Positions 6,413-14,066 of a stretch of DNA of 56,308 bases are shown here, one piece after another. The notes beneath the pieces were generated by a model, which saw only the letters and a program-made list of their open reading frames with translations, ran no database searches and was not told the DNA's origin. Position 1 is the stretch's first letter. Every line of letters begins with the position of its first letter. The DNA is from Candidatus Schekmanbacteria bacterium (GTDB taxonomy: Bacteria; SZUA-182). The stretch lies in the NCBI GenBank assembly GCA_016235675.1, contig JACRJN010000054.1, positions 1 through 56,308 of the forward strand, written 5' to 3'. Both the position numbers and the translations under genes were made by a program.

Positions 6413-7204
6413 TTAACAGCGTGCCGCCTTCCCCAAATACGCCTCGATCACCCGCTCGTTTCTCCGCACCTCGTCGAAGGTTCCTTCGGCGATCTTCTGG
6501 CCGTAGTCGAAGGCGATCACCCGGTCGGACAGACCTTTGACCATCAGCATATCATGTTCGATGACCATCAGGGTGTAGCCGGATTCCCGCAGGCGATGCA
6601 GGTCGGCCATCAGTTCTTTAGTCTCATGCGGATTCATGCCCGCCGCCGGTTCATCCAGAAGCAGCAAGCGGGGAGACGATGCCAGGGCGCGCACAATCTC
6701 CAGGCGCTTGCGGTAGGCGTAAGGCAGCGTCTTGGCCGGTTCGTTGATCAGCGGCAAAAGCTGCCGGAATAAAGCCAGGCGGCGCTGAGCCTCGGTGACG
6801 ATATATTGTTCCTCTTTTTTCTGGGCGGGCGTTTTAAATAAGGCGGACAGCGGACCGGATTGGGTGCGGCAGTGAAACCCCACCATCACGTTTTCCAGAA
6901 CGGTCATATCGGGAAAGATGCGGATGTTCTGAAAGGTGCGGGCTACACCCTGGGCGGTTATTTTATGCGGACGCAAACCGACCAGATTGACCGCCCGGTG
7001 ATCTTGCAGCCAGACTTCGCCCTCATCCGGCTGATATATCCCGGAAATCAGATTAAACAGGGTGGTCTTGCCGGAACCGTTGGGGCCGATCAGGCTTAAA
7101 ATCTCACCGGCTCGCAGTTCTATGTCTACCTGGCTAACCGCTTTCAATCCGCCGAAGGCTTTACTCAAGCGGCGGATGCTCAAAAGCGGGGGTGCCTGAC
7201 TCAT
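6413..7204 (-). CDS. livG: Branched-chain amino acid ABC transporter ATP-binding protein LivG
   Basis: A 263-aa ATPase partner of LivF. Walker A is GPNGSGKTT and Walker B is LLLLDEPAAGMNP. The segment GVARTFQNIRIFPDMTVLENVMVG is characteristic of LivG, as is the C-terminal ending with RVIEAYLG. Its ATG (7204) lies inside the 3' end of livM, overlapping by 44 nt, so the two genes are translationally coupled. The C-terminal AARC follows directly after the conserved YLGK. Confidence 0.93.
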   Translation of the reverse strand: MSQAPPLLSIRRLSKAFGGLKAVSQVDIELRAGEILSLIGPNGSGKTTLFNLISGIYQPDEGEVWLQDHRAVNLVGLRPHKITAQGVARTFQNIRIFPDMTVLENVMVGFHCRTQSGPLSALFKTPAQKKEEQYIVTEAQRRLALFRQLLPLINEPAKTLPYAYRKRLEIVRALASSPRLLLLDEPAAGMNPHETKELMADLHRLRESGYTLMVIEHDMLMVKGLSDRVIAFDYGQKIAEGTFDEVRRNERVIEAYLGKAARC

Positions 7205-8354
7205 CCTCTTCCTCCAAAAGTTCCTGTTTGCGGCGACGGCTGGGGATTAACCCCTGCGGACGGAAAATCATCATCATAATTAAGGCCGCTCCGAAAATCA
7301 GCATCCGGTATTGCTGAAAATCACGCAATTTTTCCGGCAGAACGACTAACACAATTGCACCTATGATGACTCCGGGAATACTGCCCATTCCGCCCAAAAC
7401 CACCATGCACAAGATCATGGCCGATTCCATAAAGGTAAAGCTCATGGGGTCGACAAATCCGATCAGGCTGGAATAGACCACCCCGCCCATCGCGGCGAAC
7501 CCGGCTCCGACGGCAAAGGCCAGCAGCTTAATCACCGTGACGTTGATGCCCAGGCTTTCAGCCGCCAGCGCATCTTCCCGGATTGCCATCCAGGCGCGGC
7601 CGATACGGGAATGATTGAGACGATCGGCAGCCATCCCGATCGCGCAAGCCAGTAAAATTATCAGGAAATAGTAGTTAGCCACCCGCGGCAAACCGAAACC
7701 CGGCGTTTTATCGAAAGAATACCTGGCGATGACCGGGCCGGGGATGCCGGAGATGCCCTTCGGCCCGTTGGTCAAAGTATCCCAGTTGGTTAAGATGATC
7801 CGGGTGATTTCGCCAAACCCCAGGGTGACAATCGCCAGATAATCCCCCCGCAGACGCAGAGAGGAACTGCCCAAGCAAAGCCCGATGATTCCCGCTAAAA
7901 GAGCGGTAGCCGGAAGCAGCAGCCAGAAAGCCCAGCGCGCTTGCGGGAAATGGTGAAAAAATATCGCCGAGCTATAAGCCCCGATCGCATAAAACGCCAC
8001 ATACCCCAAATCCAGCAGCCCGACAAACCCCACCACCACATTCAACCCCAGCGCCAGACAGACGTAGACCCCGGCCAGCGTCGCTACATGTATCCAGTAA
8101 GGGCTTTGCAGCCAGGTGAAGATCAGCGGGTAGGCCAGCAGGCAAAGCGCCAGTGACGCATAATATGTGCGCCTGGTGCGTTTGATCAATTCCCCGGCCT
8201 TAAGCAGCCAGCCGCCGCGCTGGAGGGCATACATCCCCCCCGCCCCGGCCAGGACAAAACCCAGGAAGGGCGCGGCCTCGTGGATGTTGAGCCCCAGGAT
8301 TAAGAGGGCGAAGCCGGTTAGGACTATGATGATGGTGTAGATATTTTCTGGCAT
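7161..8354 (-). CDS. livM: Branched-chain amino acid ABC transporter permease LivM
   Basis: A 397-aa inner-membrane permease with about ten hydrophobic segments. LGLNVVVGFVGLLDLGYVAF and LRLRGDYLAIVTLGFGEI are classic LivM signatures. The extra hydrophobic N-terminal region (residues 1-85) is seen in many LivM proteins. The sister permease LivH and the binding protein LivJ are not in the window; directly upstream is a SemiSWEET gene. The C-terminal tail is charged and cytoplasmic (SRRRKQELLEEEDES) and its coding sequence overlaps livG. The start ATG 8354 has only a weak AGAG upstream. Confidence 0.93.
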   Translation of the reverse strand: MPENIYTIIIVLTGFALLILGLNIHEAAPFLGFVLAGAGGMYALQRGGWLLKAGELIKRTRRTYYASLALCLLAYPLIFTWLQSPYWIHVATLAGVYVCLALGLNVVVGFVGLLDLGYVAFYAIGAYSSAIFFHHFPQARWAFWLLLPATALLAGIIGLCLGSSSLRLRGDYLAIVTLGFGEITRIILTNWDTLTNGPKGISGIPGPVIARYSFDKTPGFGLPRVANYYFLIILLACAIGMAADRLNHSRIGRAWMAIREDALAAESLGINVTVIKLLAFAVGAGFAAMGGVVYSSLIGFVDPMSFTFMESAMILCMVVLGGMGSIPGVIIGAIVLVVLPEKLRDFQQYRMLIFGAALIMMMIFRPQGLIPSRRRKQELLEEEDESGTPAFEHPPLE

Positions 8355-8379
8355 ATAATATCTCTATGTAACCCTTTAT

Positions 8380-8407
8380 TGTTTCGGCGTGAAACACACC
8401 GAAACAT
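8380..8407. repeat. Palindromic repeat, family C, single unit
   Basis: A hairpin unit TGTTTCGGCGTGAAACACACCGAAACA lies in the gap between the SemiSWEET gene and livM. It resembles the units at 50219-50298. Confidence 0.8.
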
Positions 8408-8428
8408 CCACTTATCCCGAAGTTTTAG

Positions 8429-8683
8429 TTATTTATATTTAATTTTGAGAAATAAAATAATCACGGTAAAGATTAAGGTTATTCCATTAGCCATCATCAG
8501 CGGCAGGTCGTTGACCAGAATGCCGTAGGCAAACCACAGGCATAGCCCTATCGATAACAAAGCATACATACCCAGAGACAAGTCTTTGGTATGCCTGGTT
8601 TTGATGACCTTAATCGCCTGCGGCAAGAATGATGTGGTGGTGCAGGTAGCCGCCAGTAAGCCGAGTGTGGTAAGCCAGTTCAT
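8429..8683 (-). CDS. SemiSWEET-type sugar transporter (MtN3/PQ-loop family)
   Basis: An 84-aa protein with three transmembrane helices, the size of bacterial SemiSWEETs, which dimerise to facilitate sugar diffusion across the inner membrane. The PQ motif is present in TTTSFLPQAIKVIKTRHTKDLS near residue 20, and the conserved ALLSIGLCLWFAYGI and Asn-containing MANGITLIF segments follow. The start chosen is ATG 8683, 2 nt after the stop of the HAD gene and preceded by GGGGGA. An ATG nine codons earlier lies inside the HAD gene and adds no homologous residues. It is probably co-transcribed with the HAD phosphatase. Confidence 0.88.
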   Translation of the reverse strand: MNWLTTLGLLAATCTTTSFLPQAIKVIKTRHTKDLSLGMYALLSIGLCLWFAYGILVNDLPLMMANGITLIFTVIILFLKIKYK

Positions 8684-8684
8684 C

Positions 8685-9473
8685 TCAATCCCCCAAATCC
8701 ACCAATTCAATCTGCGCCCGGTTCCATTCGTTAATAGGCCGCTTTAATTTAGCGAAATAATCGATAATCTGTTCCTCGGTATAGCCGTTGATCACTTCAA
8801 GGATGGGGATCAAAACCGCCAACGCGTTATCGGAGATAACGGTTCGCTTGGCAATGTGCCCCATATAAGGCGAGGAAGAAACGGCAATGGGGAAACCGTT
8901 ATAGGCCCTGACATGCAGCATGACATGGACATCCGAGGTTCCGTCTCCCACATAGATGATTTGGCTGCGGGGAATCTTTTGCCGGATTTTTAATTCATCC
9001 AGGGTGGCGACTTTAGCGTCCCCAGCTCCGGTGCGAATAACTTCAGTCACAATCCCAAGCTCGTCATAACTGAAGGTGGTTGCATAGATATTTTCCGGAG
9101 GGATAATTCCTTCCAGAGCCTGAGAAATAATGTCCCAGGGGCCTGCCGAGGTAACACAGGTATAAAATTCTGTATTATCTATCCCGTTGTTAAGCAAAGA
9201 AATAAATTGGGCGACATTCTTTTTAAGCTTCGTCTCTTTCCCCACTTCCTGCAATAAGGTCTTGCTGACCTTGCCGCAAAAATCTTTATCGGAAGTGATT
9301 AAATAGGCCAACTCCCCTCCCAACTGGACGATGTTCTTGCGTCTTATATCTTCGACCTTCCCGTCGAAACCTCGCGGGGAGATGCCTAATTTTTCGGCCA
9401 GCAGGTAACCGCTGTCATCCAGACTGAGGGTTTTATCAAAATCGGATACAAATAAATATTTTTCCTTTGACAT
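8685..9473 (-). CDS. HAD superfamily phosphatase (phosphoserine phosphatase/MtnX-like)
   Basis: A 262-aa haloacid dehalogenase-type hydrolase. Motif 1 is VSDFDKTLS (nucleophile Asp and acid/base Asp within DFDKT) at about residue 10. Motif 4 is YVGDGTSDV at about residue 170. The middle helical region is the cap. The layout resembles MtnX/SerB-like small-molecule phosphatases, but the substrate is not determinable. The ATG at 9473 has AAGGAAT 7 nt upstream. It forms a two-gene unit with the SemiSWEET gene, which suggests a sugar phosphate or related metabolite as substrate (inference only). Confidence 0.8.
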   Translation of the reverse strand: MSKEKYLFVSDFDKTLSLDDSGYLLAEKLGISPRGFDGKVEDIRRKNIVQLGGELAYLITSDKDFCGKVSKTLLQEVGKETKLKKNVAQFISLLNNGIDNTEFYTCVTSAGPWDIISQALEGIIPPENIYATTFSYDELGIVTEVIRTGAGDAKVATLDELKIRQKIPRSQIIYVGDGTSDVHVMLHVRAYNGFPIAVSSSPYMGHIAKRTVISDNALAVLIPILEVINGYTEEQIIDYFAKLKRPINEWNRAQIELVDLGD

Positions 9474-9539
9474 GGTATATTCCTTATTCTAAAAAACATG
9501 GGAATTACTTTACCTGCCTTATTTAATAAAGTCAAATTA

Positions 9540-9577
9540 AATAAAAGGGGCGGATTGAATTTATGTCAATCCGCCCC
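9540..9577 (-). terminator. Rho-independent terminator of the Cys-rich small gene
   Basis: A perfect 12-bp stem: GGGGCGGATTGA (9547-9558) pairs with TCAATCCGCCCC (9566-9577) across a 7-nt loop. Read on the minus strand it is followed by TTTTATTT, and it begins 8 nt after the stop codon of the gene at 9585-9692. Confidence 0.88.
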
Positions 9578-9584
9578 CCGGCCA

Positions 9585-9692
9585 TTACTTGGCTTGCTTG
9601 TCCGGTACGCAGCCGCAGCCGCAAGAGCCTTTGCTTCCGGCATTACCCTGGGGCTTTTTCGCCTCGGGCTTTACTTGTTCCTTCTTTGCCAT
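9585..9692 (-). CDS. 35-aa Cys-rich small protein, likely metal-binding, under ArsR-type control
   Basis: An open frame of 35 codons with a near-ideal ribosome binding site (AAAGGAGGTGA, then 5 nt, then ATG). The product starts MAKKEQVKPEAKKPQGNAG and ends GSCGCGCVPDKQAK. It has a Lys-rich N-terminal half and a CGCGC cluster, a plausible thiolate metal site. A promoter with TTGTAT, 17 bp and TATACT lies just upstream, and a strong terminator follows the stop. The ATATGCGCAT operator-like palindrome in its promoter is repeated upstream of the adjacent ArsR regulator, whose own C-terminus contains CICGC. I infer a small metal-buffering or metal-delivery protein regulated by that ArsR. I do not recognise a named family. 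Confidence 0.8.
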   Translation of the reverse strand: MAKKEQVKPEAKKPQGNAGSKGSCGCGCVPDKQAK

Positions 9693-9712
9693 ATGTCATT
9701 CACCTCCTTTGT

Positions 9713-9744
9713 TTAAGTATATGCGCATGTTCTTATATATACAA
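9713..9744 (-). promoter_or_regulatory. Promoter and ArsR-type operator of the Cys-rich gene
   Basis: On the minus strand, TTGTAT (9744-9739), a 17-bp spacer and TATACT (9721-9716) form a good sigma-70-like promoter. The palindrome ATGCGCAT overlaps the spacer next to the -10 box, inside TTAAGTATATGCGCAT (9713-9728). This 16-mer is repeated exactly at 10073-10088 upstream of the ArsR gene. Confidence 0.75.
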
Positions 9745-9756
9745 CGATAAAAAAAC

Positions 9757-10056
9757 TTACCCGCTTGGGTTTTTTCCTCCGTCCCGGCATCCGCAGATAC
9801 AAATCCGGTTAAGCCTTTGTCGGCATAACTCCAGCATCTCTTTGTTTAATGAGTAATAAATCCAATAACCCTGTCTTTCATCCTTCACCAGTTCCGCCCC
9901 TTTAAGCACCCGCAAATGTTGAGATACCGCGGATTGGGTTATCCCCAGCGCCCCGGCCAAGGCGTTGACGCTCATCGGCTCATTTTTAAGGTGTTCGATA
10001 ATTTCAATTCTCTTGTCCACAGAGAGCAGTTTGAATAATTCGGCGGATTCTTTCAT
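9757..10056 (-). CDS. ArsR/SmtB family metalloregulator
   Basis: A 99-aa winged-helix repressor, the standard size for the family. These proteins leave their operator when a metal, metalloid or thiol stress signal binds. The recognition helix region reads LGITQSAVSQHLRVLKGAELV (residues about 40-60), followed by the wing RQGYWIYYSL. The usual ArsR metal box (ELCVCD) in the recognition helix is absent. Instead the C-terminus holds CRQRLNRICICGC, so sensing through C-terminal cysteines is likely. An operator-like palindrome ATGCGCAT lies in its own promoter and in that of the downstream Cys-rich gene, pointing to autoregulation and a two-gene regulon. Confidence 0.9.
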   Translation of the reverse strand: MKESAELFKLLSVDKRIEIIEHLKNEPMSVNALAGALGITQSAVSQHLRVLKGAELVKDERQGYWIYYSLNKEMLELCRQRLNRICICGCRDGGKNPSG

Positions 10057-10072
10057 GGTTGAAACCTATCTA

Positions 10073-10088
10073 TTAAGTATATGCGCAT
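10073..10088 (-). promoter_or_regulatory. ArsR-type operator upstream of the ArsR gene
   Basis: TTAAGTATATGCGCAT is identical to 9713-9728. Read on the minus strand it includes a TATACT -10 box 20 nt before the arsR-like ATG. The -35 region is weak. A second dyad, GTAAC-N5-GTTAC, lies about 20 bp further upstream (about 10103-10117). Confidence 0.7.
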
Positions 10089-10147
10089 TTACTAATATAA
10101 TAGTAACCTATCGTTACCAGATTGTCAAGCCATAAAAACAAATAATT

Positions 10148-10305
10148 TCTAGTATAACGTTTCATAAAAAGGTATACAAACCTGTCATTGCGAGCTTAAG
10201 CGAAGCAATCCCGATTCTACCGGGCACTTCCGAGATTGCTTCGGCGATAAAGCTGCCTCGCAATGACAATTAAATGTACATATTTTAATGAAACGCTATA
10301 CTAGA
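10148..10305. repeat. Nested repeat: host element with TCTAGTATAACGTTTCAT ends containing a family A copy
   Basis: The outer inverted repeats TCTAGTATAACGTTTCAT (10148-10165) and ATGAAACGCTATACTAGA (10288-10305) differ at one base. Inside, 10184-10267 is a family A copy. A related host element, also with a family A copy inside, lies at 29146-29297. The rest of the gap to 10440 holds further small palindromes (GGGACTTTAGTCCC type at about 10377-10390) and a family C-like hairpin at 10404-10437, which may terminate the minus-strand gene ending at 10441. Confidence 0.85.
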
Positions 10306-10440
10306 GGACGAAGGGCAATTTACAGGAGCAGAGGCTTTAGCCTCGTGTAAACGCATGAAATGAACATGCGCTTGACGGGACTAAAGTCCCTACTCCAATT
10401 TTTGGGGTGTTTCGGCTTGCGGACAAACCGAAACCCCTCG

Positions 10441-10875
10441 TTAGGAGTTATTTTGCTTTTTCGCCGCAGGTTTGGAGACCCTTTTCATAACAGGCCGGGC
10501 GTTTTTCGTCCCTTTCCCGTCAGACGGGGCTTCGGCTGCCGCCTTAACCTTAAATTGTTTCTCAGGCTTTGCCGGTTGCGGCACTGCTGTGCCTGTTCCG
10601 CTCCAGATATTTCTCATTTCCGCCAACTCGGAGGCCACTTCGTGCTGCAAACCGTTTACGGAGGTTCTGAGATTGACCACAAAATCCGTCAGATTGGATT
10701 TCATCTCACTGGCCGATCTCTCACGCGTGGAACGCACATCAGCCTGAAAATCCGACATGTCTTGTTTCAGACCATTGACGAAACTACGGACATCCTGCAT
10801 CGCCTCGTTGCGTTTTACCCGCAAAAAACCGATTTCAGAGTGTAAACGATTCATATCGTCTGTCAATCGACCCAT
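10441..10875 (-). CDS. Helical gas-vesicle-associated protein, GvpC-like candidate (paralogue of the next gene)
   Basis: A 144-aa soluble, highly charged, mostly helical protein. Residues 1-95 are predicted coiled or amphipathic helix (MGRLTDDMNRLHSEI, then SFVNGLKQDMSDFQADVRST and DFVVNLRTSVNGLQHEV, two loosely repeated units). The helical part ends in AEMRNIWSGTG, reminiscent of the end of cyanobacterial GvpC. The last 45 residues are a Lys/Pro/Ala-rich tail. Its N-terminus is clearly related to the next protein upstream (MGRMSSDMQRLHNEI). It follows gvpA on the same strand, with GGAG 7 nt before ATG. I infer a vesicle-shell-binding accessory protein; the GvpC equivalence rests on size, position and helical repeat character only. 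Confidence 0.55.
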   Translation of the reverse strand: MGRLTDDMNRLHSEIGFLRVKRNEAMQDVRSFVNGLKQDMSDFQADVRSTRERSASEMKSNLTDFVVNLRTSVNGLQHEVASELAEMRNIWSGTGTAVPQPAKPEKQFKVKAAAEAPSDGKGTKNARPVMKRVSKPAAKKQNNS

Positions 10876-10892
10876 TTCATTTCTCCTTGTGA

Positions 10893-10985
10893 AAACAGGC
10901 TTTAGGCTCCGGGCGTTAGGCCAACAAAAGGGTAGTCTTTTGTTTTTTAGCCCGAAGCCTAAAGCCCATAGCCTGAAGCCTTTTC
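10893..10985. repeat. Palindromic repeat, family G (AGGCTTTAGGC...GCCTGAAGCCT)
   Basis: An imperfect inverted repeat: the left arm runs CAGGCTTTAGGCTCCGGGCGTTAGGC and the right arm GCCCGAAGCCTAAAGCCCATAGCCTGAAGCC. Another copy lies at 20129-20222. Confidence 0.8.
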
Positions 10986-10992
10986 CCCATTA

Positions 10993-11262
10993 TTAATTTG
11001 CGCTGCCGAACCATGCCTGATGGGCGCCGGATAACTCGGCTATAATTTGTTTTCTCATCCCTTTGACATAAGCACGGCGTTCATCCCTGTTTTTTTTCAA
11101 CATTCTTTGCATCTTCAAACCTGTTTCGATATTGGCGGTGTGAAATTCATGCAGCATACCGGCAACATCTTTTTTCAGGTTTTTCATCCTCTGTATACGA
11201 TCATTGTGTCCGTTCATTATTTCGTTGTGCAAGCGCTGCATATCGCTGCTCATTCTTCCCAT
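10993..11262 (-). CDS. Small helical gas-vesicle-associated protein, GvpC-like candidate
   Basis: An 89-aa highly charged protein, predicted to be one long amphipathic helix or coiled coil. It begins MGRMSSDMQRLHNEIM and ends IAELSGAHQAWFGSAN. Both ends match the 144-aa downstream protein (MGRLTDDMNRLHSEI and SELAEMRNIWSGTG), so the two are paralogues. The start at 11262 was chosen because CAGGAGGAAGAAA places a GGAGG 7 nt before this ATG and because the conserved N-terminus begins here; an upstream ATG (11295) adds 11 unrelated residues. It lies about 100 bp after gvpA on the same strand and is probably in the same transcript. A vesicle surface or assembly role is inferred. Confidence 0.6.
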   Translation of the reverse strand: MGRMSSDMQRLHNEIMNGHNDRIQRMKNLKKDVAGMLHEFHTANIETGLKMQRMLKKNRDERRAYVKGMRKQIIAELSGAHQAWFGSAN

Positions 11263-11364
11263 TTTCTTCCTCCTGGCTGTATGAAAGCCATTCAAACTTA
11301 TCCCGTAGGAGGAGGAATTTTATTTCCCCCTTCCTACACAGGATAAATTAATGCTGTATCGTGC

Positions 11365-11583
11365 TTACGCCGGGATAGCTGCACTGGCGGTTAAACCGAT
11401 AGCTTCCGCATATTTCAGATAGGTTTCCACCGAAGCGATAACAACCCGTGCTTCGATTGACAGCAACTCAATGCCTACCAAGGATACTTTTACCCAGGCA
11501 TCGATAACGATACCTTTGTCCAATATACGATCGATAACCTCGGCCAAGCTTGAGGAGTCTGTTGACTTTTGAATCTTTGCCAT
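11365..11583 (-). CDS. gvpA: Gas vesicle structural protein GvpA
   Basis: A 72-aa main rib protein of the gas vesicle wall, almost at consensus. [39 protein letters not shown] and [16 protein letters not shown] are the defining helix-strand-strand-helix segments. It is preceded by GGGGG about 9 nt upstream of ATG. Only two small helical genes follow. None of gvpF, gvpG, gvpK, gvpL, gvpN or gvpJ, normally needed for assembly, is present in the window. They may lie elsewhere in the genome, or this copy may be used differently. A sigma-54-like promoter sits about 90 bp upstream. Confidence 0.97.
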
Positions 11584-11672: not shown

Positions 11673-11690
11673 TACAATAAGTGTGCCAAC
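11673..11690 (-). promoter_or_regulatory. gvpA: Possible sigma-54-type promoter of gvpA
   Basis: The minus strand reads TTGGCACACTTATTGTAT. It has a full -24 element (TGGCAC) and a -12 element TTGT in place of TTGC, at the correct 5-nt separation. It lies about 90 nt upstream of the gvpA ATG. Because one of the two invariant -12 bases is changed, this is tentative. Confidence 0.4.
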
Positions 11691-12129: not shown

Positions 12130-12480
12130 CTATTTACCGTGACAATCTTCGCACTTAGTCGGACCTTTCTTTTCTTTCTGGTGACAGCCCTTACATTTAT
12201 CATGATAGGCATCTTTTATGGCCGGAGCTTCACCCTTCTTCTCCTGATGGCATGTCTTACAGGCTTTCATCGGTTCGCCTTCTTTTGCCTTATGATGACA
12301 AACCTTGCAATCGCCGTTTCTTTTTTGATGCTCATGATGTTTGAAGCCGGCTACCGCCTTGCTTTTGCCGTTGAAATCCAACTTGATTTCAGCCGGGCCG
12401 TTATCCGTAGCTAACACTACGCTGGCAGTGGTCATCAACAAAGCTAGCCCACCCAATACCGCCACGATTTTTTTGCTCAT
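12130..12480 (-). CDS. Small periplasmic tetraheme cytochrome c (c3/c7-like)
   Basis: A 116-aa precursor: signal peptide MSKKIVAVLGGLALLMTTASVVLA, then a mature domain with four CxxCH heme sites (CKVCHH, CKTCH, CKGCH, CEDCH). Additional histidines (GFKHHEHQ, DAYHDK) can act as distal ligands for bis-His hemes. Size and spacing fit the class III c3/c7 group, soluble electron carriers in the periplasm of anaerobes. GTG AAG AGA precedes the ATG, but the ATG at 12480, 8 nt after GGAGG, is the better start. A close paralogue lies at 13192-13554 on the same strand, sharing the sequence LDFNGKSK before the heme region. Confidence 0.9.
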   Translation of the reverse strand: MSKKIVAVLGGLALLMTTASVVLATDNGPAEIKLDFNGKSKAVAGFKHHEHQKRNGDCKVCHHKAKEGEPMKACKTCHQEKKGEAPAIKDAYHDKCKGCHQKEKKGPTKCEDCHGK

Positions 12481-12513
12481 TCTCTTCACCTCCCTCCTTT
12501 GATTTATAAATAA

Positions 12514-13191: not shown

Positions 13192-13554
13192 CTACTTTCT
13201 TTCGTGGCAGTCTTTGCAATCCTTATTCGGACCCTTACCTTCCTTTTGATGACAACCCTTACATCTGGTATGGTAAGCATCCTTCATTGCCGGCTTCTCA
13301 CCTTCGGCCTTTTCGCCGTGACAGGTTTTACAAGCCTTGGGAGCATCAGTATCGCCATCTTTATGATGACATACCTTACAGTCCCCTTTCAGTCTTTCTT
13401 GATGGGCATGATGCGGGAAGTTAGCAACATGCTTGCTTTTCCCGTTAAAATCCAAAGTAGGAGATGCCGGCCCGGAACCAACTTTCCCGGCCACAGCTCC
13501 GCTTACAGTCGCCATCAATATAATACCGCTCAATATCGCTGTAATTTTCTTCAA
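13192..13554 (-). CDS. Small periplasmic tetraheme cytochrome c, paralogue of 12130-12480
   Basis: A 120-aa precursor with signal peptide (LKKITAILSGIILMATVSGAVAG) and four CxxCH sites (CKVCHH, CKTCH, CKGCH, CKDCH). The mature part aligns along its whole length with the other cytochrome (LDFNGKSK, HHAHQERLKGDCKVCHH, MKDAYHTRCKGCHQKE). The open frame extends further upstream, but TTG at 13554 sits just before the signal peptide and about 8 nt after a GGGGG site, so I take it as the start. It probably carries electrons in the periplasm alongside its paralogue. The duplication suggests dose or partner specialisation. No reductase or quinol oxidase gene is adjacent. Confidence 0.88.
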   Translation of the reverse strand: MKKITAILSGIILMATVSGAVAGKVGSGPASPTLDFNGKSKHVANFPHHAHQERLKGDCKVCHHKDGDTDAPKACKTCHGEKAEGEKPAMKDAYHTRCKGCHQKEGKGPNKDCKDCHERK

Positions 13555-14066
13555 TCCACTCACCCCCTTTCGTTGTTTAAATTTAAATCTAAGAATATAA
13601 CTGACCAAGATTTTAACAAATATTCTTAATCCCCAAAAAGGACATTCATTATCTAATTTATTCTGTTTTAATTTTTCATGATATTTAAGGTGAGATAATT
13701 TTGCGGAATAGCTCTTGGTTTTCAACCAGGCAACGGGTTTTGATTTAGAAGTAGATTAAATCAAAGCAGCACCGTTTCCAAGACGATTATTCATTTTAAG
13801 CATTTTCCACATTTAAGGAATCAAACTATTCCTTTTCACCATCATCGCATGAAAAACCTCAAAAACTACTGGAATTGCATTTTGAAACATCTCGGTAACG
13901 GCACCGTAATTATATTATCATTTACGAATCATTGTCAAGAAATATTTTAGGCTTGTCATGCTGTATTATCAACTAGTTGCAGCAAGCATATTCTTTTGCC
14001 TGTTTTATGCACACAATCAATGTATACATAATCACAATCGGCTGAACTTTTTTAATTAGGTTTACC
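13555..14066. other. Non-coding gap upstream of the cytochrome gene
   Basis: AT-rich, divergent region between the minus-strand cytochrome and the plus-strand signalling block. It contains a weak inverted repeat (GCACCGTTTCCAAG at 13769 and CTCGGTAACGGCAC at 13891) and a small hairpin AAGGAAT-N6-ATTCCTT (about 13815-13834). A 33-codon frame at 13849 has no ribosome binding site. No gene is supported. Confidence 0.5.

Follow-up and report, generated by a model that had tools for sequence, protein, structure and literature searches.

Reinforcement of gas vesicles is known almost wholly from the GvpC proteins of cyanobacteria, haloarchaea and Serratia. In haloarchaea, GvpC (PF05465) is a repeat-containing helical protein encoded beside gvpA. 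Experimental work in Anabaena and Serratia describes GvpC as binding to the outer face of the GvpA ribs and raising the collapse pressure (PMC9994262, PMC4982088), and in a gvpC mutant of Serratia sp. ATCC 39006 this pressure falls from 0.43 to 0.14 MPa (PMC4982088). Anabaena GvpC is built of 33-residue repeats, each lying across four GvpA subunits (PMC9994262, PMC10185304). A gas vesicle cluster from Desulfobacterium vacuolatum yields vesicles when placed in E. coli (PMC10344784). Among proteobacteria, GvpC is described as conserved in seven clusters, and the cluster of Desulfomonile tiedjei is discussed in the same paper (PMC4982088).

Here, we analyzed a stretch of 56,308 nucleotides (the window) in which gvpA is followed by genes for two small helical proteins. 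We consider it highly probable that these genes form an extra three-gene shell cassette (gvpA, short rod, long rod) whose GvpC-type rods reinforce the shell, with a full gvp set on other contigs of the genome. We observed the genes themselves, gvp genes genome-wide, co-occurrence of the small proteins with gvpA, their placement in the gvpC slot, a 33-residue repeat in their longer relatives, helices in the structure predictions and a recurring short-then-long gene order. The small proteins are best read as a known kind of protein, GvpC-type, in a variant that lacks annotation and has its two rods in a conserved arrangement.

Genes and predicted shapes of the window cassette

The three genes are consecutive on the minus strand of the window. 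The first, gvpA (positions 11365-11583), encodes the main gas vesicle shell protein of 72 aa. Judged by its sequence, its identity as GvpA is certain: it scores 136.2 bits against NF006874, above the curated cut-off of 100 bits, and 63.3 bits against PF00741, in agreement with the preliminary description. Next come the candidate short GvpC-type rod protein, of 89 aa and without a C-terminal tail (10993-11262), and the candidate long one, of 144 aa and tailed (10441-10875). These had been taken for relatives with common terminal motifs, and both the ORFs and the motifs were confirmed: the two proteins have the N-terminal motif MGR-x3-DM-x-RLH-x-EI and a Trp-containing motif at the helix end in common. 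One profile recovers both of them and a third copy from the genome at E 3e-45 to 2e-31, these three proteins being its rows. Against the broader family profile introduced below, of which both are seeds, the 89-aa protein scores 78-79 bits and the 144-aa protein 110-120 bits. No Pfam or NCBIfam model matches either protein over its cut-off; DUF6730 (PF20503) scores the 89-aa protein at 15.6 bits (E 0.032), short of its 27-bit gathering threshold. The small proteins also drew weak hits to NheA, HBL, apolipoprotein and baculovirus PEP, all below every cut-off, which were dropped as coiled-coil noise.

A sigma-54-like -24/-12 element, TGGCACACTTATTGTA, precedes the gvpA start by 105 bp (11673-11688, minus strand). 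It is a candidate by consensus match only and the sole match to the pattern used in the 56-kb window. Such an element occurs within 400 bp upstream of 9 of the 94 gvpA genes in the loci fetched for comparison, against an expectation of 0.0048 for each gene; none is found at the second gvpA copy of the genome, on contig C127. Directly 3' of the stop of the 144-aa gene, a hairpin (10405-10437, minus strand; z -3.07 against dinucleotide shuffles) may mark the end of the transcript; it has no T-run and is absent from the output of the terminator scan. Scans for sigma-70 promoters and for terminators performed at chance level. The strand of the cassette also carries two adjacent class III multihaem cytochrome genes (12130-12489 and 13192-13725) upstream of it and, downstream, an ArsR-family regulator gene (9757-10056), which no evidence links to the cassette.

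AlphaFold2 models, built with 16-17 sequences, predict a single long helix in each small protein: from residue 3 to 85 in the 89-aa protein (mean pLDDT 94.5) and from residue 2 to 91 in the 144-aa protein (pLDDT about 97), the latter followed by a low-confidence tail of ~53 residues with a net charge of +9. At 1.5 Å per residue, these predicted helices of 83 and 90 residues would be about 125 and 135 Å long, and with GvpA subunits spaced at 12.7 Å (PMC9994262) either would span ~10 of them. We infer that each protein, as one long straight alpha-helix, follows the ribs of GvpA on the outside of the vesicle, that the rods would bind the shell and make it stiffer and harder to collapse, and that in the longer protein the tail would point away from the shell.

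Relation of the small-protein family to GvpC

We fetched 80 loci by GvpA alone, with 10,324 ORFs, and built a family profile from an alignment (A2) of 17 members without cyanobacteria, three of them from the genome of the window and the others from the 80 loci. Looking for the motif beside gvpA in other genomes, a check proposed in the preliminary description, gave a positive answer: all 48 ORFs that match the profile at E<=1e-3 are directly downstream of gvpA. A distance rule is passed by 47 of them, in 37 loci, the stop-to-stop ORF of locus L063 overlapping gvpA. About 31 of the 80 loci have no family match at E<=0.05, and many of these are cyanobacterial or cut by a contig end. In Desulfobacterota, Acidobacteria, methanotrophs and purple sulfur bacteria, members of the family are encoded right behind gvpA, which is the position of gvpC in cyanobacteria.

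Besides being helical and encoded right after gvpA, the longer members share the period of cyanobacterial GvpC (PF01304, TIGR02641). Among 20 distinct sequences with a helical part of at least 115 residues, lag 33 gives the strongest self-similarity of 46 lags in 16 and one of the two strongest in 18; this peak is absent from all five coiled-coil false positives. The window proteins are too short for a 33-residue period, and their best lags are 18 and 40. The family profile also scores at least 15 bits against 16 of 32 cyanobacterial GvpC proteins outside its seeds, compared with 0/32 reversed sequences and 0/3200 shuffles keeping the hydrophobic pattern. This set consists of hand-listed ORFs downstream of gvpA; an iterated set of 65 ORFs had drifted into GvpN and was discarded. 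A profile-profile comparison of the family with cyanobacterial GvpC gives 84.5% (reversed controls, 2.6% and 1.5%) and aligns their conserved C-terminal Trp-Gly ends. In the opposite direction, the cyanobacterial GvpC profile scores longer family members at up to 52.5 bits, the 144-aa protein at 28.9 bits and generic coiled coils at 29.9 bits. Coiled coils thus score as high as the 144-aa protein, so the link of the window proteins to cyanobacterial GvpC rests on their longer relatives. Sequence comparison makes a good case for the link of the family as a whole, and is suggestive only of homology for the window's own two proteins.

Several features set the family apart from cyanobacterial GvpC. 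It has an N-terminal motif of its own, MG-x-LT-x-DM-x-RL-x-x-EI; the window proteins amount to about one repeat, whereas GvpC of Anabaena flos-aquae has five of 33 residues; and there are two genes here, one with a long C-terminal tail. The curated models miss these proteins: PF01304, TIGR02641 and PF05465 give no match over cut-off for the window proteins, and TIGR02641 matches 0 of the 17 members of A2. The cyanobacterial models recover their positive controls (Tolypothrix GvpC, PF01304, 176 bits; Planktothrix GvpC, TIGR02641, 48.5 bits). The haloarchaeal model PF05465 finds no family member over its cut-off, a long member (L016) coming below it at E 0.12. Closer at hand is proteobacterial GvpC, as a MAG named Desulfomonile tiedjei (L039) has a 264-aa family member after gvpA. 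Judged from the description in PMC4982088 rather than from the sequences, the window family is probably the proteobacterial GvpC family; as a difference from the Serratia type, short tail-less partners go unmentioned in the portions of that paper available to us. By analogy with cyanobacterial GvpC, shell reinforcement would be the expected role. In the cyanobacterial proteins themselves (L054, L064, L083, L087, L092 and others), a shared C-terminal segment behind the rod, possibly a winged helix, was noted by eye.

Wherever two genes of the family could be measured together, their order is constant: a short protein without a tail is encoded first, and a longer one with a C-terminal tail after it (11/11 loci: the window, L017, L023, L026, L027, L029, L030, L101, L102, L103 and L105, with L023 and L105 from one genome). 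The first protein has 72-101 aa, with 3-10 residues beyond the end motif; the second has 129-222 aa, with a tail of 44-98 residues and a tail net charge of 0 to +9. A second gvpA lies between the pair members in 7 of the 11 loci, and none does in the window and three Acidobacteria loci. A twelfth pair, L111, was judged by eye and stands outside the count. Also left out were L025 (whose second ORF runs off its contig), L037 and L040 (weak, end motif unassigned), the duplicates L099 and L100, and the cyanobacterial locus L060 (three proteins); L104 has the short gene only before its contig ends, and L062, L110 and the C127 unit of the same genome have one short protein only. Locus L060 (Arthrospira sp. 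PCC 9108, 6964-11356) contains three tandem gvpA-gvpC units, a parallel to multiplied shell cassettes.

The literature searched, mostly not at full-text depth, held no description of the short-then-long pair. One possible reading, which we offer tentatively, is a two-part reinforcing system in which short tail-less and longer tailed GvpC-type rods, encoded in that order, share the work. The short rod could, for example, cover those parts of the vesicle that are strongly curved or form early (the cones) or cap the ends of long rods; the long rod could band the cylinder, with its tail linking vesicles to one another or to other structures in the cell. Where an extra gvpA accompanies each rod (gvpA-short-gvpA-long), it would keep the supply of shell and rod in step. 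The conserved pair makes the bacterial use of two different rods testable, and the minimal one-repeat members (72-101 aa) of this unannotated, widespread GvpC-type family offer compact natural building blocks for adjusting vesicle stiffness, on which the ultrasound response depends.

The tails also bear on a different account, in which the small proteins act not as reinforcing rods but as assembly or clustering factors, with a role like that of GvpU, GvpV or GvpH. Tails on the longer members could connect one vesicle with another or with other structures in the cell, and the amphipathicity expected of a shell-bound helix was null against shuffles: the hydrophobic moment was equalled in 112 (89-aa protein), 626 (144-aa protein) and 922 (76-aa relative on C127) of 1000 shuffles, compared with 9 of 1000 for Tolypothrix GvpC, and the family-averaged profile in 962 of 1000. 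Against such a role stand the occurrence of the family in the gvpC slot and the 33-residue repeat that it has in common with GvpC, and we regard it as unlikely. The preliminary description had left a choice between a divergent GvpC-like shell-strengthening pair and a new class of accessory protein. The pair is well supported: gene position, presence together with GvpA, the straight helices of the predictions and the 33-residue repeat in longer relatives all favour it. The new class was too strong a claim, since this family occupies the place of gvpC and GvpC-type is its best reading even though the curated GvpC models miss it.

Other gvp genes and the two gvpA copies

The window is contig C3 of a 3.0 Mb assembly of 190 contigs (completeness 89.65%). 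It had been described as having none of the other gvp genes, and for the window this stands: PF00741 matches C3 once only, no further gvp gene is present, and tblastn with 13 cluster proteins from the same genome returns only gvpA, by way of gvpJ and gvpS. For the genome it fails, as contigs C127 and C10 supply gvpG, three gvpF/L genes, gvpN, gvpS, gvpK and gvpJ, plus a second gvpA-small-protein unit. PF00741 matches four genes in the whole assembly: one gvpA each in the window and on C127, and on C10 two genes of GvpJ/S type. On C127, the only contig with matches to PF06386 and TIGR02640 (GvpL/F and GvpN), a 76-aa relative of the window small proteins lies directly behind gvpA, with gvpN (347 bits) further on; the contig also encodes gvpG (PF05120, 57.4 bits), the three GvpL/GvpF proteins, Hsp20 and two DnaJ-type zinc-finger proteins. 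Contig C10 carries a two-domain ArsA-type ATPase gene, gvpS, gvpK (114.5 bits) and gvpJ, and the two contigs may be neighbours in the genome. A stripped-down gas vesicle system was accordingly rejected: the window holds an extra shell cassette, because the same genome has the other gvp genes on these two contigs.

The two small DnaJ-type zinc-finger proteins (PF00684, Anti-TRAP-like; L005 2002-2367 and 3980-4360, on C127) lie within the gvp cluster, one of their genes between the GvpC-type gene and gvpN; such proteins are not known among the usual gvp cluster genes. On C10, the ArsA-type ATPase gene (L006 6858-8816) precedes gvpS-gvpK-gvpJ; a 2010 description already placed ArsA homologues in gas vesicle operons (PMC2963123).

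The gvpA copies of the window and of C127 differ at 37 of 219 nucleotides (83% DNA identity) and are identical at 71 of 72 residues (NG86 dN 0.006, dS 1.84), and their flanks are unlike except for the start of one small gene. To judge from these sequences, long purifying selection on two working copies would give such a divergence, as would separate acquisition of one. The same numbers bear on the possibility of a relic, in which the cassette would be a gvpA unit left without function after duplication. Its placement apart from the remaining gvp genes, on another contig of a fragmented assembly, would fit a relic, yet the 37 nucleotide differences change one residue, the ORFs are intact and a sigma-54-like element lies upstream, so that we hold a relic to be very unlikely. 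Among nine genomes of the source phylum examined, GvpA occurs in one, the window's own.

Co-occurrence of the family with GvpA

For an independent test of co-occurrence, we used alignment A2 to search whole genomes unselected for gvpA (692 genomes, two phyla). GvpA is present in each of the 23 genomes that have the family at E<=1e-5 (19/19 in the first phylum, of 395 genomes, and 4/4 in the second, of 297), four of the 23 having supplied seeds. The preliminary description had made its reading depend on co-occurrence with gvpA elsewhere, and at this threshold it is without exception. At E<=1e-3, in the phylum of L017's genome, 21 of 22 family-positive genomes have GvpA against a background of 36/395, the sole exception (G074) being the weakest match. 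In the phylum of L026's genome, 4 of 8 do against a background of 17/297, and the four GvpA-less genomes hold five generic coiled-coil ORFs matched at E 2.4e-5 to 2.9e-4. Among the 36 matches listed for L017's phylum, 29 follow a same-strand gvpA at a distance of at most 1.5 kb and 31 at a distance of at most 4 kb, while 5 have no gvpA upstream on their contig. That unrelated short helical ORFs simply happen to follow gvpA has next to no probability left: helical low-complexity proteins do match one another easily, as those five ORFs did, but the account is refuted by the 23 of 23 genomes with GvpA, by M8, R10, E14 and R22 being invariant and a Trp near-invariant in 17 members, and by reversed and shuffled controls near zero.

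On plasmids of Methylocella tundrae and Spartinivicinus ruber, NCBI annotates the protein between gvpA and gvpN as "hypothetical". The Spartinivicinus protein matches the family (E 9e-6), in parallel with the gene order of C127; the Methylocella protein gave no match at E<=1e-3, and gvpA on a Thiodictyon plasmid is without a family-type neighbour. Annotation pipelines could use the family to name such "hypothetical" proteins beside gvpA. No relative was found by tblastn with the genome's own three small proteins against viral and genome contigs (144 and 125 pattern stretches), a search that cannot reach proteins of such small size and high divergence; tblastn with the long member of L039 against plasmids returned nothing. 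Two long members (L016 8382-9494 and L052 8362-9510) end, after the tail, in a helix-hairpin-helix-like domain, matched by PF14520 at 29.6 bits in L016 and read by eye in L052; from these sequences, it is possible that some GvpC-type rods carry a DNA-binding or adaptor domain.
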